Origin: Spirosoma oryzicola
GTDB taxonomy: Bacteria; Bacteroidota; Bacteroidia; Cytophagales; Spirosomataceae
NCBI RefSeq assembly: GCF_021233055.1
Contig: NZ_CP089541.1
Location: 124,001-188,000 of the forward strand
Reading direction: 5' to 3'
Length of the DNA: 64,000 bases
Below are positions 41,676 to 62,700 of this stretch, in pieces. The position numbers and the translations under genes were made by a program. Position 1 is the stretch's first letter, and every line of letters starts with the position of its first letter. The notes under the pieces were generated by a model that had not been told where the DNA came from, did not search any database, and saw only the letters and a program-made list of their open reading frames with translations.

Positions 41676-44401
<2,726 letters not shown>

Positions 44402-44595
44402 AGTCGTACGTTTGAGGCTAAACGCAACGCCAGGGGCAACCGGAATCAGAAAGTAAGCGTAGAAATGAGTGCGAAAACCGAAGTGTGTCAGAAGCAACCA
44501 CTGATGCGGCTTGCTTTAGGGACAAGTGCCGTGTTACACAAACACAGATGCCAATTGACAGACTAATGAAACGAGTCTAACCCGGTTTTATTCGC

Positions 44596-44670: not shown

Positions 44671-44687
44671 TTCGCTGTTAAGCGGGG

Positions 44688-44695
44688 CAAATATA
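44688..44695 (-). promoter_or_regulatory. -7 element of the thi operon promoter
   Basis: TATATTTG on the minus strand is an exact TAnnTTTG match, 18 bases before the riboswitch, so the transcript would start just upstream of the aptamer. Confidence 0.6.
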
Positions 44696-44957
44696 TAAGA
44701 TTTATATAATGTGAATCGCTATTCGGTTCTTTTTTTTTGAACAAAGACTATTTTGTATGACGTGGTTCCCTAACTATTTGGTATTATCATCAAGCTACGG
44801 CTTTTGTACAGGACGATACAGGAGATCCCGAAACTAACCTCGATTAGATCGGCCTATTGGCTTGGCTGGGGTAGTAGGAACAATAGGTTTGAAACGAAGA
44901 AGCTAACCCAAGAAATCCGTTTCTATGCGTACTATTTTCAATAAATAGCTTACCGCT

Positions 44958-45560: not shown

Positions 45561-45827
45561 TCAACTATCACAAGTTTCACAATAAGGCGCGTAGCCTTCA
45601 AAATTTGGCGCAAATTGTCCTCCGGCGCTGACCAGCTTAGATAAAGGAATTTGCTCTCCTGAAGAAAGACCAACCATCTGATTGGTTCCCTTCCCGCCAA
45701 CATGCACAATAAGCGCATTCAACGTAATCAGTTCGTGAAACTCGGTAAAATATTGGACTTTTACATACTGCCGATGTTCAACAAGAGCGGTCAGATAGTC
45801 ACTAAAAGATAACAAAGATGTTTCCAT
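45561..45827 (-). CDS. Rof-like (Rho-binding antiterminator-like) small protein
   Basis: The 88-residue product has an SH3-like beta pattern, HRQYVKVQYFTEFHELITL and EQIPLSKLVSAGG, resembling Rof/Rho-binding antiterminators, then a tail with CETC. The Cys pair echoes the tail of the MarR regulator that begins directly after its stop. The assignment is weak, because Rof resemblance was judged by eye. It belongs to the DUF2024-MarR unit. Confidence 0.6.
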   Translation of the reverse strand: METSLLSFSDYLTALVEHRQYVKVQYFTEFHELITLNALIVHVGGKGTNQMVGLSSGEQIPLSKLVSAGGQFAPNFEGYAPYCETCDS

Positions 45828-45929
45828 ACAAATTAAGCTAAGTCAGTAAGCTGTTATTAAATCTACCCTATCCAAAAAAACGATGCGAATGGGGTCAATA
45901 ACCAACAACCCCATTCGGCATTGATCGTT

Positions 45930-46697
45930 CTAGTTTCTTTCTACGGTATACGGTAACGACAAACTGCCTGATAACACTCCATATACAGCGTAAACTCCCA
46001 GCATAGGCTTATCAGCCGTTTCATGATGAGCCCCTGCTTCGCCGTGCGCGGGATGATGCATCTGCAAATAGCACGTAACAGCGTCAAAGCGGAAATCTGA
46101 GCGGTGATTGATCCGGTACGCTGGAATAGCCACCCGAATGGTTTGATCGGCAGTGACGACACCGTAACCCGGCGAATCGAAATAGAGTGGTACGCCCGGC
46201 GCTGTTTTGGGCAGCACTACCGCTTTGTCATCTCGGCGAAAAGCTTTTACACTCAATCCTCCAGGCACCCGCTTGTCTTCCTGCAAGACTACCCAGTGAG
46301 GATGCCAAACAATCCCGTCGTTGTCAAAGTTGCCGTCGTTATTTTCGTCCCAAAGTGGGGTATCATCCATGTCCGGATGCGAGGTAAGAGCCAGCGCTAC
46401 AATGCCCTCGGTGGGTGAGAAACCGACATCCTGCGCTTTGAGTGTTGTTGGGAACACATAGGCCAGTACCGGAGCCCCTTGGGTACCCCCCACGGGCTTC
46501 GGTGTCGTACGACCAGCCTGACCGCTTACCTGCATACTCATAACGACCATATCCAGATCAGACTGGTAAACAGCCTTCGCCGACGTCAGCTTAAAGTCGG
46601 CATTATTATAAGAAGCTCCCGGCTGTTGTGTTTGGGCCAGCGTTGTACCTGACCAGGCGATCAGCATTAGTAGCAGTACTATTTGTGAATGGTTCAT
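45930..46697 (-). CDS. Secreted protein with His-rich segment
   Basis: A signal peptide (1-21, ending TTLAQ) leads to a mature protein of about 234 residues, with PVLAYVFPTTLKAQDVGF, a WDENNDGNFDNDG segment that resembles a calcium-binding loop, IVWHPHWVVL, and MHHPAHGEAGAHHE near the C-terminus. The His clusters suggest metal binding, possibly calcium or copper, which is inference. The family is not recognised. It is encoded between the DUF2024 and Rof-like genes on the same strand (44-base and 102-base gaps). Confidence 0.7.
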   Translation of the reverse strand: MNHSQIVLLLMLIAWSGTTLAQTQQPGASYNNADFKLTSAKAVYQSDLDMVVMSMQVSGQAGRTTPKPVGGTQGAPVLAYVFPTTLKAQDVGFSPTEGIVALALTSHPDMDDTPLWDENNDGNFDNDGIVWHPHWVVLQEDKRVPGGLSVKAFRRDDKAVVLPKTAPGVPLYFDSPGYGVVTADQTIRVAIPAYRINHRSDFRFDAVTCYLQMHHPAHGEAGAHHETADKPMLGVYAVYGVLSGSLSLPYTVERN

Positions 46698-46741
46698 AAC
46701 TTTTGTGCATTGGTTAATGGATAAAAAGGGATCTAGTCGGG

Positions 46742-47002
46742 TTAGCAGCCCTGCATTTCAATGATGTGAAAGCCCTGCTGGGCAATGCTGGTCTGCACCA
46801 TCTCGTCGGCTTCTTCTATGTGACAGAAGCGGCATTCTTTAGCAGCCAGGGGTTGCCCGGCTTGTCCTTTCGTCGCCAAGTAGGTCTGCCCATACTCATG
46901 AATCGTTGCTTCACTCGTCAACGTAGATGGCACCAGAATGTCGAAGTGCATAATTGACCCGTCTGTACGGGTAACGTAAGTATCAAAAACGGAAACTTGC
47001 AT
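46742..47002 (-). CDS. DUF2024 family protein
   Basis: The 86-residue protein matches DUF2024: MQVSVFDTYVTRTDGSIMHFD at the start and KECRFCHIEEAD near the end, closing with a Gly-Cys (MQGC). The CRFCH motif and terminal Cys suggest a metal or redox centre. No function is established for the family. It is the first gene of the operon, with an untranslated leader of about 185 bases after the promoter at 47194. Confidence 0.88.
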   Translation of the reverse strand: MQVSVFDTYVTRTDGSIMHFDILVPSTLTSEATIHEYGQTYLATKGQAGQPLAAKECRFCHIEEADEMVQTSIAQQGFHIIEMQGC

Positions 47003-47193
47003 GATTGGTAGGAATTAGCGTTGATTTATAATCTTCGTGATTGGTGTGAGAGCAGCTTCGGTTAGTGCTGCCCTATCCAGATCAGCCAGTGCTTTACTAG
47101 CTGGTCGTACTGGTGCGGTGATTGGACTTCTATTCGGGTAAGCTTTTACGGGCTGTGTTTTCTTGTCATCGTCAGATCGTTACATGTTCGACA

Positions 47194-47221
47194 CAAATAT
47201 AATTAGGAATCCTAACTATAT
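47194..47221 (-). promoter_or_regulatory. Promoter with overlapping MarR-type operator
   Basis: The minus strand carries TATATTTG (47194-47201), an exact -7 element. Bases 47197-47221 form a 25-nt palindrome with only two non-matching pairs and a perfect 13-base core TTAGGAATCCTAA. The operator covers the -7 element and the spacer, where a bound dimer would block RNA polymerase. The MarR gene at the end of the unit is the natural candidate. Confidence 0.7.
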
Positions 47222-47782
47222 TGAAAATGACTATATCTTCTTTTTCAATGCATGATTGATAAAATCTATTTATCAGGAAAGCTCGGCAGAAAAATGGCTA
47301 GAAGAGGCAACTGTTTTTTACCATTTGATTTGAAACAAGAAGATGCACTAAGATCTGTAACTACGGATTCGACCGCAATCTACTGATCATCACTATAACT
47401 ACTCTAAAGCTTATTAGCCAATCCCTTTTGAGCTATTAAAAACTAAATTGATTTATTTCAATGATACTCCCGGTTCTCTATAGACTTTAACATAACTATC
47501 TGATTATCATTTTTATAGCATTTATTTGCAAAACTAAATTTACGTGTTCACCTTTGCCTATTCATCAACGCGGTTGCTTTGACAATGCTGCTAATAATCA
47601 CAGATTGATTGCCAGCTAATCATCAGTCATCAGCACACTAACTCCCTTAACTCATGAACACAGTGCACTAAAGATAAGGTTTTCAAGTAGTGATTTTTAA
47701 ACTACATAATCAATAGATCTTATAAAGTAATAAACCCTTATTTTTTAGCGGATCTACGTTCAAGCAAACCTAATTACAGACA
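47222..47782. other. AT-rich intergenic region
   Basis: About 560 bases hold no gene with a start on either strand. The sequence is more AT-rich than the flanking genes, especially 47430-47580. It should contain the ACT gene promoter. Confidence 0.5.
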
Positions 47783-48034
47783 ATGATACAAGTGACTTAT
47801 CATATCTCTGGCTTCGACCGGCTCAATTTTGTCAGCGACATTACCAATAGCGTTCCGCAGGATGAGTCCGTCTTTATCCGAACGCTCAACTTCGAGGCAG
47901 ACGGCGTTTTAGCGAATGGTATCCTCACGATTCAAGTGCAGCAGAAAACGCAGCCCATCAGCAACCTGGCTCAACGTTTTTATGCGGTTCCGGGCGTCAT
48001 TAGTCTGAGCGAGTCCACAGAACAAGTGCAATAA
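47783..48034 (+). CDS. ACT-domain protein, RelA/SpoT tail-like
   Basis: The 83-residue protein is a single ACT domain: VTYHISGFDRLNFVSDITN, then IRTLNFEADGVLANGILTI and VPGVISLSES. This pattern is close to the C-terminal regulatory ACT domain of RelA/SpoT, here without the synthetase. ACT domains bind amino acids or partners. An in-frame TAA precedes the ATG, so it is not simply the tail of a larger frame. It may be a free-standing sensor or a relic. A hairpin follows 11 bases after the stop. Confidence 0.75.
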   Translation: MIQVTYHISGFDRLNFVSDITNSVPQDESVFIRTLNFEADGVLANGILTIQVQQKTQPISNLAQRFYAVPGVISLSESTEQVQ

Positions 48035-48045
48035 CAACATAGATA

Positions 48046-48151
48046 GACCTACGGCAATAGGTCTTCTAGACGTGAACCCAGAACAGCGGCAACTGTTCCG
48101 GTCAACTTCATACGGCTCTGGTAAACGAAGCGTCGGACCGGCCTCTTTTTT
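48046..48151 (+). ncRNA. Candidate structured leader with two CGGCAA-loop hairpins and a terminator
   Basis: Two 6-bp hairpins, GACCTA/TAGGTC (48046-48063) and GAACAG/CTGTTC (48081-48098), have exactly the same loop, CGGCAA, although their stems differ. A third stem follows at once, CCGGTC at 48098-48103 with GACCGG at 48136-48141, and then CCTCTTTTTT. The third stem shares its first base with the second. This is either the end of the ACT transcript or an attenuator before the SusC gene. It is not a known riboswitch class that I recognise. Confidence 0.45.
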
Positions 48152-48606
48152 CACATAACCAAACAATACAATGCAAAAACGTTTATTGGCAGACGTACTT
48201 TTTCTGCCTTTCCCCCAGAATTTACCGCTCCAGTTAATGGTATCTGGCAATCGAGATACCACTGATCATCGCGTCACCGATCCGCCTAGTCTGCCCGTGA
48301 AATCAACCTGTATTGGATAAGGTCCGCTTTGGCTGGAGTGAAACCCAGGGACTATTCCCGTGTGGCGACAAATTTTTAGCGCCAGACATTTTAAATAATC
48401 CCGACTCGCGGGTCTGACCAAACTCCACCGCCTTCGTTCGCAACTTTCTGGTACGCTGGAATTGCTGCGTCTATACGCCCCGAAGATCGCCATTGTAGTC
48501 GTCGATAAAGTTGATAAAAATTCATCGCAAGAGAGGGCATGCTGGCTAGTGACCAATGAATGCTGCGGTTCGCTGTAGCGCTTCTCGTGCATATACCCAT
48601 CATCAC
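48152..48606. other. Long leader region before susC
   Basis: A 49-codon frame (48171-48320, starting MQKRLLADVLF) is open but unlike any family. At its end the susC frame extends upstream to an ATG at 48556 (MNAAVRCSASRAYTHHH), which precedes the signal peptide. The region has no clear -7 element that I could find. Confidence 0.4.
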
Positions 48607-51600
48607 ATGAATAAATCTACTCCACAAGTTTTATCTACATTCATCGTCCACATCGCTTTATTGCTGATACTCTTTTCCACGCAGGTAATAGCCCAGAATC
48701 GGCTCCTCACCGGATCAGTTTCCAGCAAAGATGATAGTAAACCGCTTCCTGGTGCAAACATCATTGTTCAGGGAAGCAACATTGGTGCGCAAACCGATGC
48801 AGACGGAAAATTTTCGCTTCAAATACCACTGAACGCGACAAAACTGGTGGTTTCGTCCATCGGCTTTCTTAATCAGGAAATTTCTATTACCAACGCGGCT
48901 ACGCTGGCAATCACGCTGTCGGCAGATACCCGTCAACTGAGCGAAGTGATCGTTACGGGCTACTCCAGCGAGAGTCGAAAAGCGTTTACGGGCTCAGCAG
49001 CTAAAATCAACGCGACTCAATTAGAAAATCGACCCGCCCAAAGTCTTGATCAGTTGCTGGGCGGACAGGCGGCAGGGGTCAATATTGTCCAGCCGAGCAG
49101 CGCCCTCAACAACACGCCTGTTTTCCGAATTCGAGGCATAAATTCCATTACGTCCTCGGTGTATCCACTTTTTATCGTTGATGGCGTTACGGTTTTTACT
49201 GGCTCCGCAGGCGGTTCGGTAGGAAATAATCCCTTGTCGGACATAAATCCGTCGGATATCGAAACGATTGATATTCTCAAAGATGCTTCTGCCACGGCGA
49301 TTTACGGCTCACGAGCAGCCAATGGAGTCGTTGTAATCACGACGAAAAAAGGAAAAAAAGGGCGTACCAAAGTAAGCTATGATGGGTGGGTGAGTTTTAG
49401 CAAGCCTTTCAATCTACCAAAATTGTTAGCACCAGCGGACTACGTTGCGATAAAAAACGAAGCGCGGGTAAACGCCGGCCTATCTCCTGGTTTTGTGTTG
49501 GGTAAAAATGCCGACGGTAGTGAAATCGGGACTAACTGGTATGATGTAGCGTATCAGACGGGTGTTTCTCAAAATCACACCATCAGCATTTCGGGTGCCA
49601 ATGACGCGACCAGTTATTTTCTGTCGCTTAATCATTCCGATCAGAACGGTATTCTCCGCACGAACACGTTCAAGCGCGATGCCGCCCGTGTCAACCTAGA
49701 ACATACACTGACAAAAGGGATTCGAATCGGTACGAATCTTACATACAGTAAGTCCAGCAACGCGGGTCCTAACTCGGGAGCGATTGGGCCTAACTCCATT
49801 GCGTCATCGTCGGGGAATAGTGTCAATACGCAGTACATTGGTTTACAGCCACTTGCCCGAATGACGTATATTCTTCCGCCCAATGTCCCTGTCTACAATG
49901 TCAACGGTACGTACAATATCAACACGGCGAATGGTAATATCGGATACGGCCCGAACAGCTCGGCACTCGGTGTTTTTAACGCGTATAACCTGCAAACCAT
50001 TTTAGATCTGGACAAAAATACATCCGACAACAATACGCTGATCGGCAGCGTGTTTGCAGAAATTGAACTACTAAAGGATCTGAAACTAAAGACCGTTTAC
50101 GGCCTCGACAACTATGTGGTCGAAAACAAGGAATTCAGAAATCCGTACAGTGGAGATGGCTTCTCGACGAATGGTGTAGCGTCCAATTCCAACACGACTT
50201 ATTACCGCTCTAACTGGACAAACACGCTTTCCTACGGCACAACCTTTCGGGAAGACCATAATTTGCGAGTACTGATTGGGCATGAAGAAATTTACCGCAA
50301 AGTGGATGGATGGGGGGCTACACGAACCGGTCTGGCCGATCCGTTCTACACCAATTATCAGGGCGGTTTCACGACGATTACGCCAGCCGCAACTGTCTAC
50401 GCTGAAAATGGAATACGTTCTTTTTTCAGCAACGTGAACTACGATTACAAGCGCAAATACCTGTTTAGTTTCAACTTCCGTCGGGATGGGCTGTCCGCGT
50501 TGGCAGCGGGCAATAAATGGGGGAATTTTGGCGGAGGTTCCGTGGGCTGGAACCTGTCGGAAGAATTCTTTTACAAGCAAGCATCTCTGTCTCGGATACT
50601 GAACGATGTCAAAATCCGGGCCAGCTACGGTATTGTCGGCAACAGCAGCCTAAACGATTACGCAGCGCTGTCGCAGTTTAGCTCCGGCACCTACGCGGGG
50701 GTAGCCAGCCTGTTTTTCGGGCAAGCGGGTAACCCGGAGTTGCAGTGGGAAACAAGCAAAAAAATAGACATTGGCTTAAACCTGGGGCTTTGGAATAACC
50801 GCGTTACGCTGGAAGCGGATTACTACAAAAATACCATCGACGGGTTGATCCTAAACGCTCCTCAACCCTCTTCCAAAGGGATTCCTGGTAACTCGATTGC
50901 CGCCAACGTGGGATCGCTGTACAATCAGGGAATCGAGCTGGGGATCTCCGCTACCCTGCTTAACAAAGGAAAACTTGGTTGGAACGCCAATGTCAACATT
51001 GCCACTCTCGAAAACAAGGTTACTTCCTTGGGTACCGGGGGCGACATCTACCCGACGAACCTGAGCACATTTGGTATTCAGAACATTACGCGGGTTGGCT
51101 ATTCTGTTGGCTCAATTTTCGCCGTACCGACTGCGGGGATCAACCCTACCAACGGCAACAAGCTGTATATCAACCGAAACAACGAGACGGTTCAGTACAA
51201 TGCTGTTACCAAAAGCTTCTCGTATCTAGACGGTGGCCCCGCGCCGGTCATTGACAACTACGCAGACGGACGGATTCAAGGTCCATCCTTACCGACGTAT
51301 TACGGGGGCTTCAATAACAACCTGACGTACGGTCCGTTCGATTTGACCATTGGCCTTATTTTCTCAGGCGGCAACAAACTATACAACGGGACCCGGGCTA
51401 CGCTATCTGATCAGCGGTATTTCAACAACGGCACCTTTATCCTGGATCGCTGGACTACGCCCGGCCAGGTAACCGACATTCCGAAACTGGTTTGGGGGGA
51501 CAGCTTCACGGGCGGCTTCTCATCGGCCAACGCTACAAACGTTGAAGATGGCTCGTTTATCAAGCTCAAAAATGTTGCGCTGGGCTACCGTGTTCCCGTC

Positions 51601-51795
51601 GAACGCCTTGGTATTAATAAAGTCATTTCGTCGGCGCGGGCTTACGTTCAGGCGGCCAACGTGTTCACCATGACAAAATACACCGGCTCCGATCCCGAAG
51701 TATCCATCAACGGTAACTCGATCAATTCGGGCAAAGACCAGAATGTTCCGGTCAACGCATCTGTCTACACTATTGGCGTAAACATTGGCTTCTAA
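48607..51795 (+). CDS. SusC/RagA-type TonB-dependent receptor
   Basis: This outer-membrane importer (1062 residues) works with the SusD lid that follows. A signal peptide (ending QVIAQN) is followed by a carboxypeptidase-like CarboxypepD_reg domain (LTGSVSSKDDSKPLPGANI), a plug with ITGSAAKINATQLENRP-like residues and IRGINSITSS, VDGVTVFTGS and ATAIYGSRAANGVV, and a 22-strand barrel ending in GVNIGF. The ATG at 48607 gives a standard signal peptide; the upstream ATG at 48556 adds 17 residues and is discussed as a possible leader. The genes that follow point to a sulfonate or an amino-acid-like sulfur compound as ligand, not a glycan; no glycosidase is present. Confidence 0.93.
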   Translation: MNKSTPQVLSTFIVHIALLLILFSTQVIAQNRLLTGSVSSKDDSKPLPGANIIVQGSNIGAQTDADGKFSLQIPLNATKLVVSSIGFLNQEISITNAATLAITLSADTRQLSEVIVTGYSSESRKAFTGSAAKINATQLENRPAQSLDQLLGGQAAGVNIVQPSSALNNTPVFRIRGINSITSSVYPLFIVDGVTVFTGSAGGSVGNNPLSDINPSDIETIDILKDASATAIYGSRAANGVVVITTKKGKKGRTKVSYDGWVSFSKPFNLPKLLAPADYVAIKNEARVNAGLSPGFVLGKNADGSEIGTNWYDVAYQTGVSQNHTISISGANDATSYFLSLNHSDQNGILRTNTFKRDAARVNLEHTLTKGIRIGTNLTYSKSSNAGPNSGAIGPNSIASSSGNSVNTQYIGLQPLARMTYILPPNVPVYNVNGTYNINTANGNIGYGPNSSALGVFNAYNLQTILDLDKNTSDNNTLIGSVFAEIELLKDLKLKTVYGLDNYVVENKEFRNPYSGDGFSTNGVASNSNTTYYRSNWTNTLSYGTTFREDHNLRVLIGHEEIYRKVDGWGATRTGLADPFYTNYQGGFTTITPAATVYAENGIRSFFSNVNYDYKRKYLFSFNFRRDGLSALAAGNKWGNFGGGSVGWNLSEEFFYKQASLSRILNDVKIRASYGIVGNSSLNDYAALSQFSSGTYAGVASLFFGQAGNPELQWETSKKIDIGLNLGLWNNRVTLEADYYKNTIDGLILNAPQPSSKGIPGNSIAANVGSLYNQGIELGISATLLNKGKLGWNANVNIATLENKVTSLGTGGDIYPTNLSTFGIQNITRVGYSVGSIFAVPTAGINPTNGNKLYINRNNETVQYNAVTKSFSYLDGGPAPVIDNYADGRIQGPSLPTYYGGFNNNLTYGPFDLTIGLIFSGGNKLYNGTRATLSDQRYFNNGTFILDRWTTPGQVTDIPKLVWGDSFTGGFSSANATNVEDGSFIKLKNVALGYRVPVERLGINKVISSARAYVQAANVFTMTKYTGSDPEVSINGNSINSGKDQNVPVNASVYTIGVNIGF

Positions 51796-51816
51796 ATCCG
51801 TAACACACTTATTGTC

Positions 51817-53286
51817 ATGCTACTCCACAAAAAATTTACCCGCATTTTCAGTCAGTCCTTAACCGTATCGGCTCTTTCGGTATTGCTGTTTTCTGCCTGC
51901 CGCAAAGACATTCTGGATGCGGTTCCCGTGACCAGCATATCCAACGAATCGGCCTACAGTACGCCCGCTAAAATTCTAGCCCAGGTCAACGGCATCTATG
52001 CCCAGTTCGGCAGCGCATCGTATTACGGAGGACGGTTCATTGTTTTCAACGAACAGCGCGGCAATGAATTCAGCCAGAACGACGGAAATAACTCCACGGG
52101 AGCCAACGTCTGGAATCAGTCCATCTCAGCTTCAGGGGATTTTGTTAATGCGGTCTGGACCGCTGCGTACCGGACCATCAACTCTTCGAATCTGCTGATT
52201 GAAACGTTAGCTACGTCAACCGTTGTCCCAGACTCAGTCCGCAAAGGGTACATTGCCGAAGCCAAATTTTTACGGGCTTTCAGTTATCTGAGCCTAGTAC
52301 AAACCTACGCTAAACCGTTTGCGCAGAATAGCACCAGTCCGGCCTTACCGCTACGGTTAAAAGCCGAAACCTCAAGCAATAACAATGACTTGGCGTTCAG
52401 TAGTGTAGCGGACATCTACGGACAAATTATCAAAGACTTGAACGAGGCCGAAGCCGATTTGCCAACCGCGTATTCAACGGCGATTTTAAACGCGTCCAGG
52501 GCACACAAAGCGTCAGCTATTGCACTAAAAACCCGAGCCTACTTGATCAAAGGCGATTATGCAGGTGTCGTGACGGAAGCAGCTAAATTAGTGTCTGCGT
52601 CAACTCCGTTTCAATATTCCGCTGGAACGGTGACGCATCGGTTAGAGACTAATGTAGCAACGGTATTTGGCGGCTCTTATCTGGGTAACGAAGCAATCTT
52701 TTCCATTCCGTTTGTCAATCCAGCGGAAGCGCCTGACCTACAAAGCGCACTGGCGGCCAACTACCTGACGCCGGTTATTTATCTGAATCCAACGGGTATT
52801 GTGTCTGACCCGGTTTTTTCGTCAGCTACGTCGGCAGATGCCCGAAAAAACTTGCTTGCTACAAACGCAACGGGGCAAAAGCTACTGAAAAAGTTTTCTA
52901 AAAATTCCGCGCCCTATACGGACTTTATTCCTGTGATCCGCTACGCCGAAGTACTGCTCAACTACGCGGAGGCCGCAGCGCAAACGGGCGATCTGAACAA
53001 GGCAACCGCCCTGCTTAGAGCCGTTCGTAATCGATCCGACGCAGGTTTTACGTTTACAACGGGGATCGGATCGAAAGACGAGTTGGTCAGCACCGTACTG
53101 AACGAACGCCGGATCGAATTACTGGGAGAAGGCTTCCGAACCTCCGATCTGCTCCGACGTGTACAACCGCTTCCTGCCAAGACGGGCAATGCTGGTACAG
53201 CTCCGGAAGTAGCGCCAACGGCTGGCAATTACGTATGGGCGATCCCCAGTGGTGAACTCGCTTACAACACATTAGCGCCCCGCTGA
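51817..53286 (+). CDS. SusD/RagB-type surface lipoprotein
   Basis: The 489-residue ligand-binding lipoprotein caps the SusC barrel. The signal ends FSACRKD, with the Cys as the acylation site. TPR-like helices (about 100-200) with AEAKFLRAFSYLSLVQTY and the C-terminal RagB domain with IRYAEVLLNYAEAA, NKATALLRAVRNRSD, and NERRIELLGEGFRTSDLLRR are typical. The gene starts 21 bases after susC, so both are translated from one mRNA. Confidence 0.95.
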   Translation: MLLHKKFTRIFSQSLTVSALSVLLFSACRKDILDAVPVTSISNESAYSTPAKILAQVNGIYAQFGSASYYGGRFIVFNEQRGNEFSQNDGNNSTGANVWNQSISASGDFVNAVWTAAYRTINSSNLLIETLATSTVVPDSVRKGYIAEAKFLRAFSYLSLVQTYAKPFAQNSTSPALPLRLKAETSSNNNDLAFSSVADIYGQIIKDLNEAEADLPTAYSTAILNASRAHKASAIALKTRAYLIKGDYAGVVTEAAKLVSASTPFQYSAGTVTHRLETNVATVFGGSYLGNEAIFSIPFVNPAEAPDLQSALAANYLTPVIYLNPTGIVSDPVFSSATSADARKNLLATNATGQKLLKKFSKNSAPYTDFIPVIRYAEVLLNYAEAAAQTGDLNKATALLRAVRNRSDAGFTFTTGIGSKDELVSTVLNERRIELLGEGFRTSDLLRRVQPLPAKTGNAGTAPEVAPTAGNYVWAIPSGELAYNTLAPR

Positions 53287-53369
53287 TCAGACGCAAACAT
53301 TACGCCGATTTTTTATCATCTGCCTGGCTGCACCGGCCAGTGGCCTGACCAAATACTCCATTCAATCCT

Positions 53370-55097
53370 ATGAAACGTACAACGTTTATTCCACTTTTCC
53401 TTGCTCTTCCTTTGCTGACGTTAGGCAAAGGTCCCGGCGATGGATCAAAACCCGCCAAAGAAAGCGCGGATAAGATTTTTGTCAATGGTACCATCATTAC
53501 CGTTGATGCAAAAAATTCGACGGCGCAGGCGGTAGCTGTAAAAGCCGGAAAAGTCCTGGCGGTTGGTTCCATTCGTGATATCAACAAACTCAGAGATGCG
53601 GGTACAGTCGTCGTTGACCTCGGCGGTAAAACCGTTATTCCGGGCTTTATCGATGGTCACAGTCATTTCATGAGTCTTGAATGGACACAAACAGCCAATG
53701 TAGCAGCCCCACCTGTGGGTACGGTTAAAACCATCGCCGATATTGTTAGCGAGCTAAAAAAATACAAAGCCGAAAAAAACATCCCCGACGGGGCCTGGAT
53801 TCGGGGATTTGGCTATGATGTGGACCAACTAGCCGAGAAACGTCACCCAATCAAAGAAGATTTAGACGGAGCTTTTCCCAACAACCCGGTTGTCATTACG
53901 CACGTGTCCGGGCATATGTCGGTCGCCAATTCGGCTGCGTTGAAAGCGTCGGGTATAGATAGCACCACCAAAGATCCTGCCGGGGGAATTATTGTTCGGA
54001 AAGACGGCTCCAATGAACCGGCGGGCTTGCTCCAGGAGAAGGCGCAGTACAGCGTCCGGCTGAAAAACGCCAACGCAACGCCTTCGTTGGATGATCAGTT
54101 AAAGGTTCTTCACGATCAGCAGCTTTACTACGCCAGTCAGGGAATTACGACTGCACAGGATGGCAGCACAAGTTTCGAATCGCTGCAACTGCTCAAGCAA
54201 GCTGCGAATAAAGGGAAGTTGTTTATCGATATTGAAACGTTACCCTCCTACGGTATTATCGATAAAGTGTTAGGCAACCCTGATTTCACGTACGGCACGT
54301 TGACCAATCACTTAAAACTTAACGGCTTCAAGTTTATGTCCGATGGGTCGCCCCAGGGCAAAACAGCCTTTTTTGGCCAACCGTATTTAACCAAAGTACC
54401 GGGCTGTGACGCGGAAGTCTGTCGGGGCTTTCCCGTAACGTCGCAGGAGCAGTTTAACGAAGCCGTGCTAAAGGGTTTTAAAAACAACATTCAAACGTAC
54501 GTCCACTGCAACGGTGATGCCGCCATCGACATGTACATCGAAGCGGTTGAAAACGCTAACCGGGTGTTAGGAACTACCAGCACCAACCGTCGCCCTGTAG
54601 TAATTCATTCGCAGTTTGTTCGGCCCGACCAGCTCGATAAGTACAAGCAGTTGGGCATGTTGCCCGCCTGCTTCACCAACCACACGTTTTTCTGGGGCGA
54701 TGTTCACGTACAGAATCTGGGCGAAAAACGCGCTTTCTTTTCGAGTCCACTGAAAACGGCGCTTAAAAAAGGGATCATTGCGACGAACCATACCGATTTC
54801 CCCGTAACGCCGGTCAACCAACTGTTTTTGTTGTGGTCATCTGTCAACCGGCAATCGCGCTTGGGACGAACGATTGGCCCCGACGAGCGATTGACGCCCA
54901 TCGAAGGCTTACGAGCCGTAACGATCAACGGAGCGTATGAATATTTCGAAGAAAAAACCAAAGGCTCGATTGAACCCGGCAAGCTGGCCGATCTCGTGGT
55001 TCTTTCCGATAATCCGCTAACCATCGACCCGCTGAAAATCAAAGACATTGTGGTGTTGGAGACAATCAAGGAAGGAAGCACGATTTACAAGCGATAA
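53370..55097 (+). CDS. Amidohydrolase family protein, YtcJ-like, exported
   Basis: A signal peptide (about 1-19) is followed by a metal-dependent amidohydrolase_3 fold of 556 residues. Motifs are DGHSHF (metal HxH), the ITHVSGHMSVANS region, HCNGDAAID, HSQFVRPDQ and NHTDFPVTP (metal Asp), with the closing GSIEPGKLADLVVL. The family cleaves amide or N-acyl bonds, and the signal peptide puts it in the periplasm. In this locus it could deacylate or hydrolyse an N-substituted sulfonate after uptake by SusCD; that is inference. It starts 83 bases after susD. Confidence 0.88.
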   Translation: MKRTTFIPLFLALPLLTLGKGPGDGSKPAKESADKIFVNGTIITVDAKNSTAQAVAVKAGKVLAVGSIRDINKLRDAGTVVVDLGGKTVIPGFIDGHSHFMSLEWTQTANVAAPPVGTVKTIADIVSELKKYKAEKNIPDGAWIRGFGYDVDQLAEKRHPIKEDLDGAFPNNPVVITHVSGHMSVANSAALKASGIDSTTKDPAGGIIVRKDGSNEPAGLLQEKAQYSVRLKNANATPSLDDQLKVLHDQQLYYASQGITTAQDGSTSFESLQLLKQAANKGKLFIDIETLPSYGIIDKVLGNPDFTYGTLTNHLKLNGFKFMSDGSPQGKTAFFGQPYLTKVPGCDAEVCRGFPVTSQEQFNEAVLKGFKNNIQTYVHCNGDAAIDMYIEAVENANRVLGTTSTNRRPVVIHSQFVRPDQLDKYKQLGMLPACFTNHTFFWGDVHVQNLGEKRAFFSSPLKTALKKGIIATNHTDFPVTPVNQLFLLWSSVNRQSRLGRTIGPDERLTPIEGLRAVTINGAYEYFEEKTKGSIEPGKLADLVVLSDNPLTIDPLKIKDIVVLETIKEGSTIYKR

Positions 55098-55148
55098 CTC
55101 CGGCGATACGCGTCGCTTATTCATGACTTTGTTAACCTGCAAGTAAAA

Positions 55149-56315
55149 ATGACCTTAGCAAAAATTACCACCGTACCTATTCGTACTACGCAACGTGTGG
55201 CGGAAGTAGCCTGGTTTGACGATATCATTGGGGGAGATACTGAGTATCTGGGTGTGCTGGACAACACCCGCCGAAGCAGCTTTGCCCATTGCAAAGACAT
55301 CGCGCTGGGAGCCGAGAAGCTAGGCTTCAGTACCATTTTATTTCCGACTGCCTACACCGTCGGGCAAGATCCGCTAACTTTTGCCGCCGGTATTGCTCCG
55401 CTGACCAGTGCTATAAATTTATTGGTAGCCATCCGTACCGGCGAGTTTCATCCACCCATGCTGGCTCGGGCACTGGCTTCGCTTGACCACATGCTCAACG
55501 GACGATTGATCTTAAATATTATCAATTCCGACCTTCCCGGCTTGCGCGAAGATCCGGTTCTTCGGTACCAGCGGTGCGCCGAAACCATCGAAATCCTGAA
55601 ACAGGCCTGGACAAAGGATCGGATCAACCATCGGGGTAAATTATACCAGTTCGATTTACCCGCTGATCCCGTAAAACCTTACCAGCAGAACGGTGGACCA
55701 CTGCTTTATTTTGGTGGCACCTCCGATGGCTCACGCGATGTGTGCGCGCGGTATTGCGATGTTTTTCTGACCTGGCCCGAGTCGGAAGAAAGTATGTACG
55801 CAACGCTTCAGGACATGACAGCACGGGCAGCACGCTACGGTCGAAAAATTGATTTCGGTTTACGTATTCACGTCATCGTTCGGGAAACAGAAGCCGAAGC
55901 GCGGGCGTATGCCCGACGCCTGATGTCAAAATTTGACGAACAGCGAGGAGCCGAAATCCGGGCGCGGGGCGAAGATTCCCGGTCACTGGGCGTACTCCGA
56001 CAGGATCAGTTGCGCGAAACCGCCAACATTGACGGTTACGTTGAAGACATTCTCTGGACCCACATCGGAAAGGTGTTTTCGGGTTGCGGGGGCGGTTTGG
56101 TTGGGAGTGCCGATCAGGTCGTTGCCAAGCTTAACCGGTACATCGATATGGGGTTTCGCTCGTTTATTTTCTCGGGTTTTCCGCTTCTTGAGGAGGCAAA
56201 CTACTTCGCCAAACTGGTCCTCCCCCGCCTGCCGAATGTATCGATGCCTGCCTTACAGGGCCGCATTGCAGCAGACGCCCCTGTTACCCCACTGACAACG
56301 GCTGAACTGGTATGA
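55149..56315 (+). CDS. LLM-class flavin monooxygenase, alkanesulfonate monooxygenase-like
   Basis: The 388-residue TIM-barrel enzyme resembles SsuD: SFAHCKDIALGAEKLGFSTILF at the N-terminus, then VAIRTGEFHPPMLARALASLDHMLNGRLILNIINSD (FMN and Arg-rich site), FGGTSDGSRDVCARYCD and the C-terminal FIFSGFPLLEEANYFAK, which is a good SsuD signature. SsuD uses FMNH2 and O2 to cleave alkanesulfonates into an aldehyde and sulfite in the cytoplasm. The reductase partner (SsuE) is not adjacent. The stop overlaps the permease start by 4 bases. A related function on other sulfur compounds is possible. Confidence 0.88.
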   Translation: MTLAKITTVPIRTTQRVAEVAWFDDIIGGDTEYLGVLDNTRRSSFAHCKDIALGAEKLGFSTILFPTAYTVGQDPLTFAAGIAPLTSAINLLVAIRTGEFHPPMLARALASLDHMLNGRLILNIINSDLPGLREDPVLRYQRCAETIEILKQAWTKDRINHRGKLYQFDLPADPVKPYQQNGGPLLYFGGTSDGSRDVCARYCDVFLTWPESEESMYATLQDMTARAARYGRKIDFGLRIHVIVRETEAEARAYARRLMSKFDEQRGAEIRARGEDSRSLGVLRQDQLRETANIDGYVEDILWTHIGKVFSGCGGGLVGSADQVVAKLNRYIDMGFRSFIFSGFPLLEEANYFAKLVLPRLPNVSMPALQGRIAADAPVTPLTTAELV

Positions 56316-57760
56316 CAACAACGACCCTTGAAAAAGAGCCTGTGGTGATGAAACGGGAAATCGGTCTGCTCGACGCGACGCTACTCGCAGCAGGCGGCAT
56401 GATCGGTTCCGGAATCTTTATCGTCAGTGCCGATGTCATACGGAACGTTGGTTCGGCGGGATGGCTTATTGCCGTATGGATCATTGGGGGTTTCATGACC
56501 CTCATAGCAGCCGTTAGCTACGGCGAACTTAGCGGTATGTATCCCAAGGCAGGAGGCCAGTACGTATACCTCAAAGAAGCGTATAATCCGCTGATTGCTT
56601 TCCTGTACGGCTGGAGCTTATTTGCTGTTATTCAGACGGGAACCATTGCTGCGGTAGGCGTTTCGTTTTTTAAGTTCCTGGCTTATTTTGTACCCGCTGT
56701 TAGTGAAGACGTTGTTTTGTTTTCGCTCGGACAATTTCATATTTCGCCCGCCCAGCTTCTGGCGATTGGGGTAATTTTTTTGCTGACCTATATCAATACC
56801 AAAGGTGTAAAAGGTGGAAAAATCATCCAGACAACATTTACCGCCACCAAAGTACTGAGCATTATTGGTTTAATTGGATTTGGGCTGTTCTACCTAAAAC
56901 CAGATGTCTGGGCAAGCAACTGGACCAATGCCTGGCACTTACAACGGCTCGGGCGTGATGGCTCGGTTGATATGTATCTGGGTATCCCAGCCCTTGGTGG
57001 CGCTATCGCGGCTGCCCTGACCGGTACCGTGGTTAGTTATGATGCCTGGAACAATGTGACGTTCGTAGCGGGTGAAATCAAAAATCCACGCCGAAATATT
57101 GGCCTGAGTTTACTGCTGGGCACATTGTTGGTCACTGTACTGTACGTATCGCTCAACGTCATGTTTACGGCTGTGTTACCACTGTCCGACATTGCCGGTG
57201 CCGAAAAAGACCGGGTGGGTATTACGGCGGCCCAGGCGATTTTTGGTCAGGCCGGTACCGCTGTCATCGCTATCACCATCCTGATTGCTACGTTTGGCTG
57301 TAACAATGGCCTGATTCTGGCCGGAGCAAGGGTCTATTACAGCATGGCTAAAGACGGTTTATTCTTTCAGAAAACGGCTCACCTGAACAAACACGCCGTT
57401 CCCGAATTCGCCTTGTGGATTCAGGCTGTTGTCGCTTCGTTATTGTGTTTAAGTGGTCGCTACGGCGATTTGCTGGATATGATCTCGTTTGTTGTCGTCT
57501 TGTTCTACATTCTGACGATCTGGGGAATATTTATACTGCGCCGGAAACAACCCCACATCGAACGGTCGTACAAGGCGTTTGGCTACCCGGTTTTGCCGGC
57601 GTTATACATTCTGATGGGTAGCTTATTCTGTGGCCTACTGATCATTTACAAACCAACCTATACCTGGCCGGGGCTTCTCATTGCGCTTCTTGGTGTGCCA
57701 ATCTATTATTGGTTGGTCAGGCAAAATCACGTAGAAATTAATGAACGTACACCCTTATAG
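56312..57760 (+). CDS. APC-family amino acid permease
   Basis: The 482-residue inner-membrane transporter has about twelve helices with the family opening LLDATLLAAGGMIGSGIFIVS, the KGVKGGKIIQTTFTATK loop and VVSYDAWNNVTFVAGEIKNP. APC permeases carry amino acids or amines by proton symport or exchange. In this locus a zwitterionic amino-sulfonate such as taurine or cysteate would fit, as inference. Its start overlaps the monooxygenase stop by 4 bases, and its end overlaps the cytochrome gene by 20. Confidence 0.9.
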   Translation: MTTTTLEKEPVVMKREIGLLDATLLAAGGMIGSGIFIVSADVIRNVGSAGWLIAVWIIGGFMTLIAAVSYGELSGMYPKAGGQYVYLKEAYNPLIAFLYGWSLFAVIQTGTIAAVGVSFFKFLAYFVPAVSEDVVLFSLGQFHISPAQLLAIGVIFLLTYINTKGVKGGKIIQTTFTATKVLSIIGLIGFGLFYLKPDVWASNWTNAWHLQRLGRDGSVDMYLGIPALGGAIAAALTGTVVSYDAWNNVTFVAGEIKNPRRNIGLSLLLGTLLVTVLYVSLNVMFTAVLPLSDIAGAEKDRVGITAAQAIFGQAGTAVIAITILIATFGCNNGLILAGARVYYSMAKDGLFFQKTAHLNKHAVPEFALWIQAVVASLLCLSGRYGDLLDMISFVVVLFYILTIWGIFILRRKQPHIERSYKAFGYPVLPALYILMGSLFCGLLIIYKPTYTWPGLLIALLGVPIYYWLVRQNHVEINERTPL

Positions 57761-58337
57761 TGTCTGGCTGGCAGGCGTCTTCGCGCTGCTGACTTTAGAC
57801 AGTTGTTTTCAGGCAAACGGGCAAGACCACCTCTCCCATCCGGTCGTCATTACTGATACACTACCGACTCGCTTTGGCATCGGGCGACTAGCCACAGCAG
57901 CCGAAATTGCACGGCTTGATATCGATGTGCGTCCTAACGGAAAAGGCTTACCCGCCGGACAAGGGAATTCCGCCACGGGCAAACAAATTTTCGCCACCAA
58001 ATGCGCAGCCTGTCACGGAACCGGGGGCGTAGGGGGTCCAAATGGCTCACTGGTCACGTCGACCAATCCGGACCGGAAACGACCCGAGAAAACCATCGGA
58101 AATTATTGGCCGTATGCCACAACCGTATTTGATTACATCCGTAGGGCGATGCCATTTAGCCAGCCGGGTTCGCTCACCAACGAAGAGGTTTACCACCTGA
58201 CAGCCTATTTGCTACAGGCGAATGGCATTATCGACGAAAAAGCCGTCATCAACGCGCAAACGCTTCCTCGTGTGGTCATGCCCGCTCAGAAGCTGTTCGT
58301 CCCCGACAACCGCAAAGGTGGGCCAGAAATAAAGTAA
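57741..58337 (+). CDS. Exported c-type cytochrome (sulfite dehydrogenase partner)
   Basis: A signal peptide (about 1-28) leads to a mature 170-residue monoheme cytochrome c with C88-A-A-C91-H92 in KCAACHGTGG and a distal Met in the AMPFSQPG stretch. It resembles SorB/SoxD-type electron acceptors. The gene starts within the end of the permease and ends 1 base before the sulfite dehydrogenase, so it very probably accepts electrons from that enzyme and passes them to the respiratory chain. Confidence 0.88.
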   Translation: MNVHPYSVWLAGVFALLTLDSCFQANGQDHLSHPVVITDTLPTRFGIGRLATAAEIARLDIDVRPNGKGLPAGQGNSATGKQIFATKCAACHGTGGVGGPNGSLVTSTNPDRKRPEKTIGNYWPYATTVFDYIRRAMPFSQPGSLTNEEVYHLTAYLLQANGIIDEKAVINAQTLPRVVMPAQKLFVPDNRKGGPEIK

Positions 58338-58338
58338 A

Positions 58339-59580
58339 ATGAAGAAAAGCACAAGTCAACTGGAACAGCTTACGGGCCGCCTGTCACGGCGGGCTATGCT
58401 TGGCGGGGCGGCTACGGCAGCGGTAGCCCTCGTTCAAACAGCATCCGGCAAAACACTTCAGCAAGGCATTGCCGTAAGCGAGCTACTCCCCGACGATCCG
58501 ACAAAACAAATCGGCACGCTGGCCGGAGAAGTAGGCACACGGTCTACATTTGAAAAAGTCGTTAAGAAGCCGTCGGATATTTCTTCCCGGTCGCCGTTAC
58601 AAGATTTCTACGGCATTATCACGCCATCGGATCTGCATTTTGAGCGGCACCACGCGGGAGTTCCGGTAATCGACCCGGCCAAACACGAACTTCTGATTCA
58701 CGGGTTGGTCGATAAGCCATTGGTATTTACCGTTGGCGACCTCAAACGTTTCCCCTCCGTTTCCCGCATCGCCTTTCTGGAATGCTCGGGAAATTTTCGT
58801 TCGGGTAAAGAAACGCTGAGTCCACAGGATATTTGCGGATTGACCAGCCAGAGCGAATGGACAGGCGTAAAACTTTCGACATTGTTTCGGGAAGTCGGGG
58901 TAAAACCAAATGCCAGCTGGTTTCTGGCCGAAGGGTCCGATGCGGCCATTATGACCCGGAGTATTCCCGTAAAAAAAGGCTGGGACGATGCGATTGTGGC
59001 TTACGCGCAGAATGGTGAAGCGCTGCGCCCCGAACAGGGGTATCCCGTCCGGTTATTTTTACCCGGCTGGGAAGGGAATACATCCGTCAAATGGTTGCGT
59101 CGAATCGAGTTGTCCGACCAGCCGTTTATGACCCGCGAAGAAACCTCGAAGTACACGGAGCCAATCAAAGAAGGCAAGTACAGACAGTTTAGTTTTGACA
59201 TCGACGCCCGCTCAATCATCACGTTTCCTGCTTATCCAAAAACAATTGAAAAAGGCTGGATCGAGATTCGGGGGATTGCGTGGAGCGGTCGCGGGAAGGT
59301 AGCACGGGTAGAGGTAAGTACGGATGCGGGTAAGTCGTGGCAACCGGCTGTACTTCAGGAACCAATACTGGACAAAGCCCATACGGCGTTTCGGTACGTT
59401 TGGCATTGGAACGGGACCGAAACAGAAATCCTTAGCCGCGTCACTGATGAAACAGGCTACGTACAGCCTACCCTGAAACAACTAATCGAAGCACGCGGAA
59501 ACGCGATTGGCTACCATTTTAACCCGATTACGGCCTGGCGAATTAAGCCGGACGGCACCGTGCTATTTAAACCAGAGTAA
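58339..59580 (+). CDS. Sulfite dehydrogenase, molybdenum subunit (SorA/SoxC-like)
   Basis: A Tat signal with SRRAMLGGAATAAVA precedes a sulfite-oxidase-type molybdopterin domain: HERHHAGVPVI-like opening (ERHHAGVPV), then FLECSGNFRSG with the Mo-ligand C149, and WTGVKLSTLFREVG, RPEQGYPVRLFLPGWEG and WLRRIELSD, followed by the Mo-co dimerisation domain with GIAWSGRGKVARVEVSTD. Length 413. It oxidises sulfite to sulfate in the periplasm. This is the terminal detoxifying step for sulfite made by the SsuD-like enzyme. It is the last gene of the locus, closed by a strong hairpin. Confidence 0.93.
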   Translation: MKKSTSQLEQLTGRLSRRAMLGGAATAAVALVQTASGKTLQQGIAVSELLPDDPTKQIGTLAGEVGTRSTFEKVVKKPSDISSRSPLQDFYGIITPSDLHFERHHAGVPVIDPAKHELLIHGLVDKPLVFTVGDLKRFPSVSRIAFLECSGNFRSGKETLSPQDICGLTSQSEWTGVKLSTLFREVGVKPNASWFLAEGSDAAIMTRSIPVKKGWDDAIVAYAQNGEALRPEQGYPVRLFLPGWEGNTSVKWLRRIELSDQPFMTREETSKYTEPIKEGKYRQFSFDIDARSIITFPAYPKTIEKGWIEIRGIAWSGRGKVARVEVSTDAGKSWQPAVLQEPILDKAHTAFRYVWHWNGTETEILSRVTDETGYVQPTLKQLIEARGNAIGYHFNPITAWRIKPDGTVLFKPE

Positions 59581-59659
59581 AATAGTTACGAGCTAATTCA
59601 CATTCACCGATCACGAAAACACTCCGGTTGTAAGCATTATCTGACTGATCTTGGCGAAT

Positions 59660-59712
59660 GCGTTAAAAAGCCGAAGCCCATACACAAGGTACGGGCTTCG
59701 GCTTTTTAACGC
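59660..59712. terminator. 20-bp bidirectional hairpin terminator
   Basis: Arms 59660-59679 and 59693-59712 are exact complements with A and T runs at the base. It separates the convergent sulfite dehydrogenase and the large secreted protein and can end both transcripts. Confidence 0.9.
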
Positions 59713-59728
59713 TTATTTACTCCATTGG

Positions 59729-62700
59729 CTAGAACTTGATGAGCTTGACCTGTTTGTGTTGCGTTGGGGTACTTACTTCCAAGAGTAATACACCTTGACC
59801 ATTGCTTACTGGTAGGCTAACCTTTTCCTTCGCTTTCACCGATTCAATAGCAACCTCATGCAGCGATTTACCCTGAAGATCGAACAACGTCAACCGGACC
59901 GGCTGACCTTCGGCACCACTTATCTCGATCTGTGCTTCGTTGCTTACAACAGGGTTGCCCAGCACGTTAACCTCCAGCTCGGCAATCGCTTCCTGAGCGG
60001 CCATACGAGAACTTACTGGTGGCTCCTGCCCGTAGACCAATTCGCCGTTTAAGTAAGCCGTGATACGAGCGTTCGGCGCGTAGTCGCGGTTGAGCATGTA
60101 CGAGTAATCGTCACCCTGGTTAAAGCCGGAGTAGTCAGCCTTGTTTATGCTGCTCTGAATCTCCCCTGAGCTGCTGCGTGGTGCCAGGTTGCCAGCCCCC
60201 GCCGTAAAGCGATATTCGAGGTAGCCCGTTGCACCCTGACGAGGACTGCTTAGCGGCACATAGCGTACCTGAACGTTACCCGAACCCAGCTGCACATAGT
60301 TGTACTGGATGTTGAGCGGAGACGAATTTTCTACTGTCAACCAGTATCGTAATGTCAGCTGCTCGTAGGGAATGGTTCCATCGCCTTCGTTGCGCACTTG
60401 CACAAAAGGCTTGATGGTGTTGGTGTTCAACTGACCATTGTCGGGATCGCGTTGCAGAACAACAAGCTGGGTGTTGCTGGCAACCGGAGCCGGACTCACC
60501 GAGATATTGAAGCTGGTCGTCGACGAAAGATTACCCGGATCAGTAGCCGTAATGGTTACCCCAACAACACCGCTCGTACTTGGCGTGCCCGACAGGATGC
60601 GACTAGCCGCGTCGAAGCTCAGCCCATTCGCTGGATTCAGGCTAGCTGTGTACGTTAGCTGGTTTGGCGTTTCTACATCCGTAAACGCATTCACCGTATA
60701 CGAGAAGAAACGACCGACAATAGCTCCCTGATCGGTATTGTTACCCGGACTTGGCGCTGTGTTGGCCGGCGCTTGCATCACCGTTACGCTTACTGTTTTA
60801 GCGACGCTTTGAGCCGGTGAGGCAGCGTCAGTGACGGTAACGGTAAACGTTTGTACACCCGCCGTCAATCCTGAAACAGTAGCCGTACTGCCGTTAACCT
60901 GAATCGTTCCTGGTCCCTGGAAGCTGTAGCTGTAGGGCGCATTGCCACCCGAAGCGTTGGCGGACAGAGTTGTCGAACCAGACGTCAGCAAGCTTGTCGG
61001 GTTGGCCGAAGCCTCCAGACTAAGCAGAGTGGGAACAACAGGTCCCTGCCCTTGTGGTTCTTCTCCCCAGACGAGTGATCCATTCAGATAAGCCGTAATG
61101 CGACTGTTTGGTGTGTAATCACGGTTGAGTGCATACGAGTAGTCATCCCCCTGGAAGAAAGAGCTGTAGTCGGCTTTATTGATATTAGTCTGGATGTCAC
61201 CCGAATTGCTGCGTGGAGCGAGACTACCCGCAGCGGCATCAAAGCGGTATTCCAGATAACCGGTAGCGCCCTGGCGGGGCTGACTCAAAGCGACATAGCG
61301 TACGTGAACGTTGTTAGCACCGAGTTGAACGTAGCTAAATTGAGCGTTGACCGGCGACGGGTTCTCCAAAGTCAACCAGTAACGCAAGGTAAGCTGGCTG
61401 TAGGCAATGGCGTTATCACCGTCGTTTCGAAGTTGCAGATACGGCTTAATGGTGTTGGTATTAAGCTGCCCGTTGTCAGGATCGCGCTGTAAGACTGCCA
61501 GTTGCACGGTAGGTAGCACATCGGCAGGGCTCACCGTGATGGTAAAGCTAGTACCTACGGTCAGACTTCCTGGATCAGTAGCGGTTACCGTAACCGAATT
61601 GACGCCACTAACAGAAGGCGTGCCGCTGATGGTAGCCGGAGCCGTAAAGCTTAGTCCAGCAGGTAAGCCGCTTACTGACAGCGTCAGTTGATCTGGCGTC
61701 TCGGTATCGGTGAATACGCCCGTCAGCGAAAGGGTGTAGTTCTGGCCAACGGTTGCACTTTGCGGGGCAATTGCCTTAGCTACGGTTGGTGCGGTGTTGG
61801 GAGCCGTACCTAACGGGACAATGTCCGAACGGAACTTTTTGAAGTTGTTCTGCGCGAGGTCTTTCGCAATCGTACCGTTGTTGTAAAACACGGCGTCACC
61901 GTTATCGACCAGTAATTGAATCTGGCTCGTACTGGTCAACGGGCTGGGCACCTCGACAATCGACTCAAAACTACCGTTTGCATTCAACGACGATAAGTCA
62001 GCGGAACGTAATAAAGGCGCATCGGCAGGGTTTCCCGTCCAGGTGTACAACCGGAAATCGTTGGGAGCCGCTCCGGCATCACCAGCAGGTCCGGCAACAA
62101 TAACGTATTCGTTGTTGCTGTTTTTACGAATTTCCCGAATACCCCGGCCCCCCAGATCAACTTCTAGCGGAGCGCCAAAAGTAGCGCTACCCTGTGTGCC
62201 TCCGTTACCCGTTGGCAGCGTCATGAAGTTAGTAACAGCTACGATCAGCGCTTTTTTCCGATCCGTCGGCGGCACCTGAGGAGCCCGGAACGAAACATAA
62301 GCCGTTGCGTTATCAGGAGCCAGTTCGACACCTTCGATGTTAAAACCAGTTGGCTGTTTCGACCCGACACCTGCGGTTGCGCTGGCCGCTAGTCCGTAAT
62401 AGTTAGCCCCTTTACCGTGTCCGTTATTGACATCCCAGGCAATGATATCATTACGCAGGTAATCGTACCGACCTACGTAGCTTAGCGTTGTTGCCGCACC
62501 ACTGCCAGTTACATCCGTAGCAAATACCCGATTTCGGTTAGGCCGGTTGTCTCCACCATCGGCGTTACTTTCTGAACCCATCCAGAAAATGCGGTTACCC
62601 AGACGAGTAGACGCTTCCAGATCGACTTCACGCGGTACACCACCACCCGATACATCCGTAAGCCCCAGCGACGACGTAAAGTCAAACCCAGCAATGGGTA

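Follow-up and report, generated by a model that had tools for sequence, protein, structure and literature searches.

A run of seven genes that opens with a SusC/SusD outer-membrane uptake pair and closes with a SoxC-type sulfite dehydrogenase was examined in a 64,000-nucleotide stretch of the 7.3-Mb genome of Spirosoma oryzicola (contig NZ_CP089541.1, positions 124,001 to 188,000 of the forward strand), referred to here as the window and numbered from its first base. All seven genes are on the plus strand between positions 48607 and 59580, with intergenic distances of 21, 83, 51, -4, -20, and 1 bases, the start of the APC permease gene overlapping by 4 bases the end of the gene for a bacterial-luciferase-like monooxygenase (LLM). 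The first-pass annotation, made from the sequence alone, had placed the seven genes on one strand with gaps of at most 83 bases or overlaps and had named their families; the coordinates, distances, and profile scans agree with it (Table 1). The locus divides into a five-gene core (susC, susD, amidohydrolase, LLM, and APC) and a two-gene tail (cytochrome c and soxC).

Table 1. Genes of the locus and two codons of the LLM gene, with window positions
Feature	Position	Strand	Evidence
SusC/RagA-type TonB-dependent outer-membrane receptor (core gene 1)	48607..51795	+	TIGR04056, 731.2 bits (cut-off 368.25)
SusD-type surface lipoprotein (core gene 2)	51817..53286	+	PF07980 and PF14322, over cut-offs
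Amidohydro_3 amidohydrolase, signal-peptide-like N-terminus by eye (core gene 3)	53370..55097	+	PF07969, 2.8e-98
LLM flavin monooxygenase, SmoC/SsuD group (core gene 4)	55149..56315	+	PF00296, 5.5e-52
APC-superfamily amino acid permease, LAT-like (core gene 5)	56312..57760	+	PF13520, 2e-54; TIGR00911, 203.6 bits, below cut-off
Exported monohaem cytochrome c, SoxD-like (tail gene 1)	57741..58337	+	PF00034/PF13442; best PDB match 2xts_B, 2.6e-33
SoxC-type molybdenum sulfite dehydrogenase (tail gene 2)	58339..59580	+	TIGR04555, 491.1 bits (cut-off 420)
F310 codon, at the place of the sulfonate-binding loop Arg (MsuD R296, consensus RGGA)	56076..56078	+	Alignment; loop VFSGC, Arg absent
F344 codon, aligned with the Tyr next to the loop Arg (MsuD Y330)	56178..56180	+	Alignment; SGFPL, Tyr absent

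The TIGR04056 SusC protein is directly followed by a SusD-family protein, as in an uptake pair, and the open reading frame of susC begins at 48556, ahead of the gene call at 48607. What is known of SusCD pairs comes mostly from glycan uptake; as the first-pass annotation had remarked, profile scans of the seven operon proteins revealed no glycosidase family, so that the carbohydrate-active enzymes that accompany SusCD in a polysaccharide utilisation locus are missing among them. Residues H97, H99, H379, H413, and D476 of the amidohydrolase were invariant in an alignment of 15 sequences, and such residues are presumably metal binding in this superfamily. By eye, no signal peptide was seen in the LLM. 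The tail cytochrome contains one CxxCH motif, and SoxC has a twin-arginine-like N-terminus (SRRAMLG) and best matches PDB chain 2xts_A (3.6e-87), its FLECSGN aligning with FCECAAN of 2xts in the Cys region of the molybdenum site. No description of the locus was found in the titles and abstract openings of the open-licence literature searched.

To identify how widely the core occurs, the LLM was used to search 222 genomes of the family to which Spirosoma belongs, 53 of which had a match at E <=1e-60. A close LLM group, sharing 75 to 100% identity with the window protein, was present in 12 of the 222 genomes (one copy being a fragment at a contig end), and the remaining matches, including the second copy in the same genome as the window, formed a second group with 59 to 68% identity. 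Searching the same genomes with the amidohydrolase (E <=1e-150) returned exactly the same 12 genomes. Gene contexts were then examined for 10 close relatives in the family (L032 to L041) and 19 loci of named genomes, from which L081, L096, and L098 (repeat genomes) and L094 and L095 (second-group LLM) were excluded, leaving 24 loci (10 from the family, 10 from Flavobacterium, and 4 from Chitinophagales) in addition to that of the window. The order susC-susD-amidohydrolase-LLM-APC was kept on one strand in 23 of these, the exception being L091, which has a shortened amidohydrolase gene without recognised susCD alongside; amidohydrolase and APC genes lie beside the close-group LLM in all 24. Distances between core genes in the relatives were mostly below 250 bases, the exceptions (1618, 1453, and 624 bases) occurring in L034 and L035 because extra genes have been inserted there. 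As the order is conserved in 23 of 24 loci and the amidohydrolase and LLM genome sets are identical, the association of the core genes exceeds chance, and the synteny in other Bacteroidota anticipated from the window is borne out.

The cytochrome c-SoxC pair is variable and lies outside the conserved core, sharing a gene run with it in 6 of the 24 other loci. In the window, L032, L034, L035, and L036 it comes after the APC gene; in the genomes that contain L037 and L041 it precedes susC and shares its strand (loci L100 and L099). SoxC was detected in 72 of the 222 family genomes: in 12 of 12 with the core versus 60 of 210 others (Fisher p 7e-7, uncorrected for kinship). SoxC and the core LLM are no more than 12 kb apart in 7 of the 12 core genomes, compared with 1 of 12 genomes that have SoxC and only a second-group LLM (p 0.014); when the distance was extended to 20 kb, SoxC was near the second-group LLM in two of these 12 (p 0.045 versus core genomes). 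Of the five core genomes without a nearby SoxC, three have the gene on a different contig and two on the same one, 31 and 84 kb away. A few genes downstream of SoxC, L036 encodes a PF03601 permease and L034 and L035 a sodium:sulfate-type symporter; neither is present in the window. Both subunits of the window best match chains of 2xts, which we take to be Paracoccus SoxCD, and SoxC passes the equivalog model; however, SoxD of Paracoccus is a dihaem cytochrome whereas that of the window has a single haem motif, the pair is placed after an uptake and putative desulfurisation core, and no SoxYZ gene is found among the operon genes. A search for the SoxYZ carrier domain PF08770 gave no matches in the same genome and equally none in 14 control genomes.

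In the Flavobacterium loci the core has different company. A family 2A encapsulin shell gene and the gene for its cysteine desulfurase cargo, neither found in the window locus, adjoin the same core downstream in 10 of 10 loci, with serine acetyltransferase (8/10) and cysteine synthase (CysK; 5/10) genes in between in some and the encapsulin directly after the core in the others. A sulfatase gene is located upstream of the core in nine, the contig of the tenth (L083) breaking off shortly before susC. In L080, encapsulin 2A (526.8 bits, cut-off 380), cysteine desulfurase (901, cut-off 800), CysK (405, cut-off 351), and serine acetyltransferase follow the core and were named by profile; in the other nine loci, naming was by BLAST to L080. 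Species of the genus with the core include F. hibernum and F. frigidimaris. Across a sample of 199 Flavobacterium genomes, encapsulin was found in 27 and the amidohydrolase, at 66 to 67% identity and approximately 5 to 7 kb from encapsulin, in three, which are already among the ten core loci and hence not independent; seven further amidohydrolase matches (46 to 52%) were not counted as core, and the one examined (L152) had no LLM in view. Twenty-four of the encapsulin genomes are without the core; the 16 of these that were examined by BLAST contained sulfatase-like genes (16/16), SusC or SusD (13), and a relative of the L036 PF03601 permease (15). Because core-free encapsulin loci also hold sulfatase, SusCD, and permease genes, the Flavobacterium core looks like one extra cassette within a sulfur-acquisition island. 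These core-free islands (L133 to L148) comprise SusCD, several sulfatases, a fatty-acid-hydroxylase-family protein, a rhodanese-thioredoxin protein, the PF03601 permease, cysteine genes, and encapsulin with cysteine desulfurase. This type of encapsulin rises under sulfate starvation in the cyanobacterium Synechococcus (PMC8049743).

Together, the presence of SoxC in every core genome of the family, its proximity in seven of them, and the encapsulin-desulfurase pair in every Flavobacterium locus uphold the role in sulfur metabolism that had been proposed for the window. The proposal that the locus ends in sulfite oxidation holds for part of one family only, as the Flavobacterium loci carry assimilation-type genes and 7 of the 24 loci have no recognised sulfur gene; the sulfite-oxidising end is thus optional and lineage specific.

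The best PDB matches of the LLM were 7oh2 (428.7 bits) and 7olf (424.4 bits), both over almost its full length, followed by 7jv3 and 1nqk. We take the former two to be SmoC/SquD, the sulfoquinovose monooxygenase (named alkanesulfonate monooxygenase and methanesulfonate sulfonatase in the PDB), and the latter two to be MsuD and SsuD, respectively. The best named model, TIGR03565 (alkanesulfonate monooxygenase), scored 246.6 bits, under half of its equivalog cut-off of 518.2, and among the best 120 of 7141 matches the closest named proteins were from Spirosoma (98 and 87% identity). The usual ssu layout comprises an ABC transporter and SsuE/MsuE, in place of which the window operon has SusCD, the amidohydrolase, and the APC permease. 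The sulfonate site of MsuD consists of W195, R225, R296, and residue 299; the R296A, R225A, and W195A variants gave no measurable sulfite, function was lost in SsuD with Ala or Cys at the equivalent of R296, and the C-terminal E368 is positioned to interact with Y330 and R296 (PMC8234197). In the window protein, W209 and R239 correspond to MsuD W195 and R225 and are invariant in 17 aligned relatives, and R239 and H241, the core Arg and His, are kept; family and flavin site are shared with SsuD and MsuD. In contrast, the places of R296 and Y330 are taken by Phe, as they are in 115 of the best 120 of 7141 homologues. Both Phe residues were found in 11 of 11 aligned core members, whereas Arg and Tyr are retained in 30 of 30 second-group paralogues from the family; in place of the His that comes after the Tyr in SsuD, all 41 of these proteins have Leu. 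The 44 Phe-type proteins were monophyletic in a 78-sequence tree (local support 0.919), and of 10 clade-specific positions only K271, changed like for like to R, carries a basic residue in the core clade. Judged from alignments and the published MsuD structure, the core-clade LLM therefore appears to be a derived branch near SmoC, SsuD, and MsuD with a remodelled sulfonate/anion pocket (Arg to Phe and Tyr to Phe). The SsuD-like step is not upheld in the form proposed by the first-pass annotation: the LLM groups beside SmoC and SsuD and not outside them, but the Arg on which MsuD and SsuD depend to act on a sulfonate is missing from its clade.

Since the best PDB relatives are SmoC/SquD, with which the window LLM shares the Trp and the core Arg and His, a sulfoquinovose substrate was considered. 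It was dropped, as SmoC/SquD keep the loop Arg, Tyr, and His (GRARSGCG and SGYPH) where the window protein has GKVFSGCG and SGFPL, and there are no sugar enzymes among the seven genes. A sugar-releasing glycosidase is also part of the sulfoquinovose pathway cluster; neither this, a sugar dehydrogenase, nor a 6-dehydroglucose reductase is among the seven genes, the rest of the genome not having been searched for them. The reductase is included in the sulfo-SMO/ASMO pathway cluster (PMC9594981). The second-group LLM loci, in which Arg and Tyr are kept, are candidates for a sulfosugar pathway in Bacteroidota. Of the 30 such loci (L042 to L071), 18 have an SSF symporter in view and 11 a GH13-type enzyme, as counted by clustering with one member of each named by Pfam.

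With slightly better than even confidence, the window locus is read as a cassette that extracts sulfur from an imported organosulfur compound by means of a derived carbon-sulfur (C-S) cleaving LLM with a remodelled anion site. Sulfur use is likely and sulfonate use uncertain. From the observed gene order, families, clade-specific residues, and sulfur neighbourhoods, and with reactions taken from family knowledge, we infer the reaction steps, the direction of transport, the substrate, and the route of sulfite to the periplasm. The compound would enter the periplasm by way of SusCD, an amide or similar C-N bond would be cleaved there by the exported amidohydrolase, and the APC permease would move the amino-acid-like product into the cytoplasm, where the LLM, with reduced flavin mononucleotide (FMN) from a reductase encoded elsewhere, would cleave the C-S bond and release sulfite. 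In the window's family, periplasmic SoxC may oxidise this sulfite and pass electrons to cytochrome c; in Flavobacterium, the same core would feed sulfur assimilation. The exchange of Arg and Tyr for Phe suggests that the substrate is probably not a simple alkanesulfonate. The preferred candidate is an amide-bearing or amino organosulfur compound. A LigB-family protein is encoded directly upstream of susC in L034, L035, L037, and L041 (the L034 copy passes a 4,5-DOPA-dioxygenase model), preceded by an M19 dipeptidase gene in L037 and L041; these neighbours are a possible hint at an aromatic or peptide-like substrate.

Several results weigh against the cassette reading. At one of its two Phe positions, the clade lacks an Arg without which MsuD releases no measurable sulfite. 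Neither a flavin reductase nor a sulfite exporter is encoded in the locus, even though the LLM appears to be cytoplasmic and SoxC to be exported; the same genome has two FMN_red proteins over cut-off, both on contigs other than that of the locus. On the operon strand of seven loci, L033, L038, and L040 from the family and all four from Chitinophagales (L091, L092, L093, and L097), no recognised sulfur gene was found among neighbours that were partly profile scanned, a distant sodium:sulfate-symporter relative (32%) in L033 being on the opposite strand; in L039, a sulfatase gene lies four genes downstream, beyond another SusC. The ten Flavobacterium loci belong to one lineage and therefore amount to about one independent case. 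In a phylum-wide draw of 395 genomes, the close LLM group occurred in that of the window and one other, so the cassette is rare. Finally, SusC or SusD was in view in 20 of 20 SoxC loci hand-picked from the 72 SoxC genomes, 18 of them without an LLM; with 37 to 96 SusC matches per genome (six genomes), such nearness is weak evidence.

These SoxC loci could also mean that cytochrome c-SoxC is an independent module for the oxidation of sulfite or thiosulfate, one that becomes part of many SusCD operons and is uninformative about the substrate. We consider this unlikely, because SoxC is near the core LLM more often than it is near the second-group LLM and the sulfur context in Flavobacterium is independent of SoxC, though it would be compatible with other readings of the core. 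That the substrate of the core is free of sulfur (a cyclic amide or amine, for example), with sulfur genes adjacent by chance or through shared starvation control, would fit the seven loci without a recognised sulfur neighbour, the partly lost sulfonate site, the recurrence of peptidase-like accessory genes (S51 and M19), and the many substrates that LLM enzymes oxidise; it is made quite improbable by the different sulfur settings of two lineages, SoxC in one and the cysteine/encapsulin island in the other, and by the SoxC gene in all 12 core genomes.

It is somewhat unlikely that the LLM is an ordinary SmoC- or SsuD-like monooxygenase for an N-acyl or amino sulfonate in which another arrangement replaces Arg and Tyr. 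Its nearest solved relatives are such enzymes, W209, R239, and H241 are kept, the context is one of sulfur, and an exported amidohydrolase with an amino acid permease suits an N-acyl aminosulfonate. On the other hand, the MsuD R296A variant and the SsuD variants described above (PMC8234197) were inactive, no basic residue appears among the clade-specific positions other than the like-for-like K271 to R, and the TIGR03565 score is low. Among known systems, the naa genes for N-acetyltaurine degradation in Cupriavidus also place an amidohydrolase ahead of desulfonation, to our knowledge without SusCD. A bolder extension of the cassette reading, held tentatively, is that the clade may constitute a new class of C-S cleaving flavin monooxygenases across several Bacteroidota orders, its pocket suited to a non-sulfonate organosulfur group (such as a sulfone, sulfonamide, thioether, or amide-masked sulfur amino acid) that arrives by a dedicated SusCD-amidohydrolase-APC route and is directed to assimilation in Flavobacterium and to sulfite oxidation in relatives of Spirosoma.

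In the 20-kb SoxC loci of family genomes (L101 to L118), cytochrome c and soxC were mostly part of a different, LLM-free SusCD cluster. A pair of related membrane proteins, DoxX-like by eye, was encoded in 15 of the 20 loci (four of these proteins were scanned, with no Pfam match), and a CrtO-like FAD oxidoreductase gene followed cytochrome c and soxC in 16, sometimes with genes for a cyanophycinase-like S51 protein and PF03601. This cluster may be an undescribed sulfur-oxidation locus.

Just upstream of susC, approximately 1.85 kb (46700 to 48550) contain no open reading frame of at least 120 amino acids. A decayed copy of the genes upstream of susC in relatives was sought between 46600 and 48700 with six upstream or neighbouring proteins and rejected (best tblastn E 0.41). 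An Rfam scan of 44000 to 60500 identified no sulfur riboswitch, only a thiamine pyrophosphate (TPP) riboswitch and a leader match under the gathering score; extending the scan to the whole window and L080, L034, L037, and L040 returned only the same TPP site (44584 to 44675, minus strand), which belongs to a neighbouring minus-strand region and is unrelated to the operon. The promoter motif of Bacteroidota consists of TTG and TAnnTTTG. No match to this consensus was found upstream of susC in the window; among 10 relatives, the full motif was present in L034 only and its -7 part in L034, L036, and L092.

Overall, the observations of the first-pass annotation were confirmed and its interpretation proved half right, leaving it partly supported. 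The automatic label "alkanesulfonate monooxygenase," given by some sources to many proteins of the clade, may be wrong, and the residue swap is clear enough for the question to be tested by assaying a single purified enzyme on various sulfur compounds. If the cassette reading is true, one SusCD cassette placed in two sulfur settings would mean that Bacteroidota take up organosulfur compounds with the same outer-membrane machinery, and would indicate a so far unrecognised sulfur source for this phylum.

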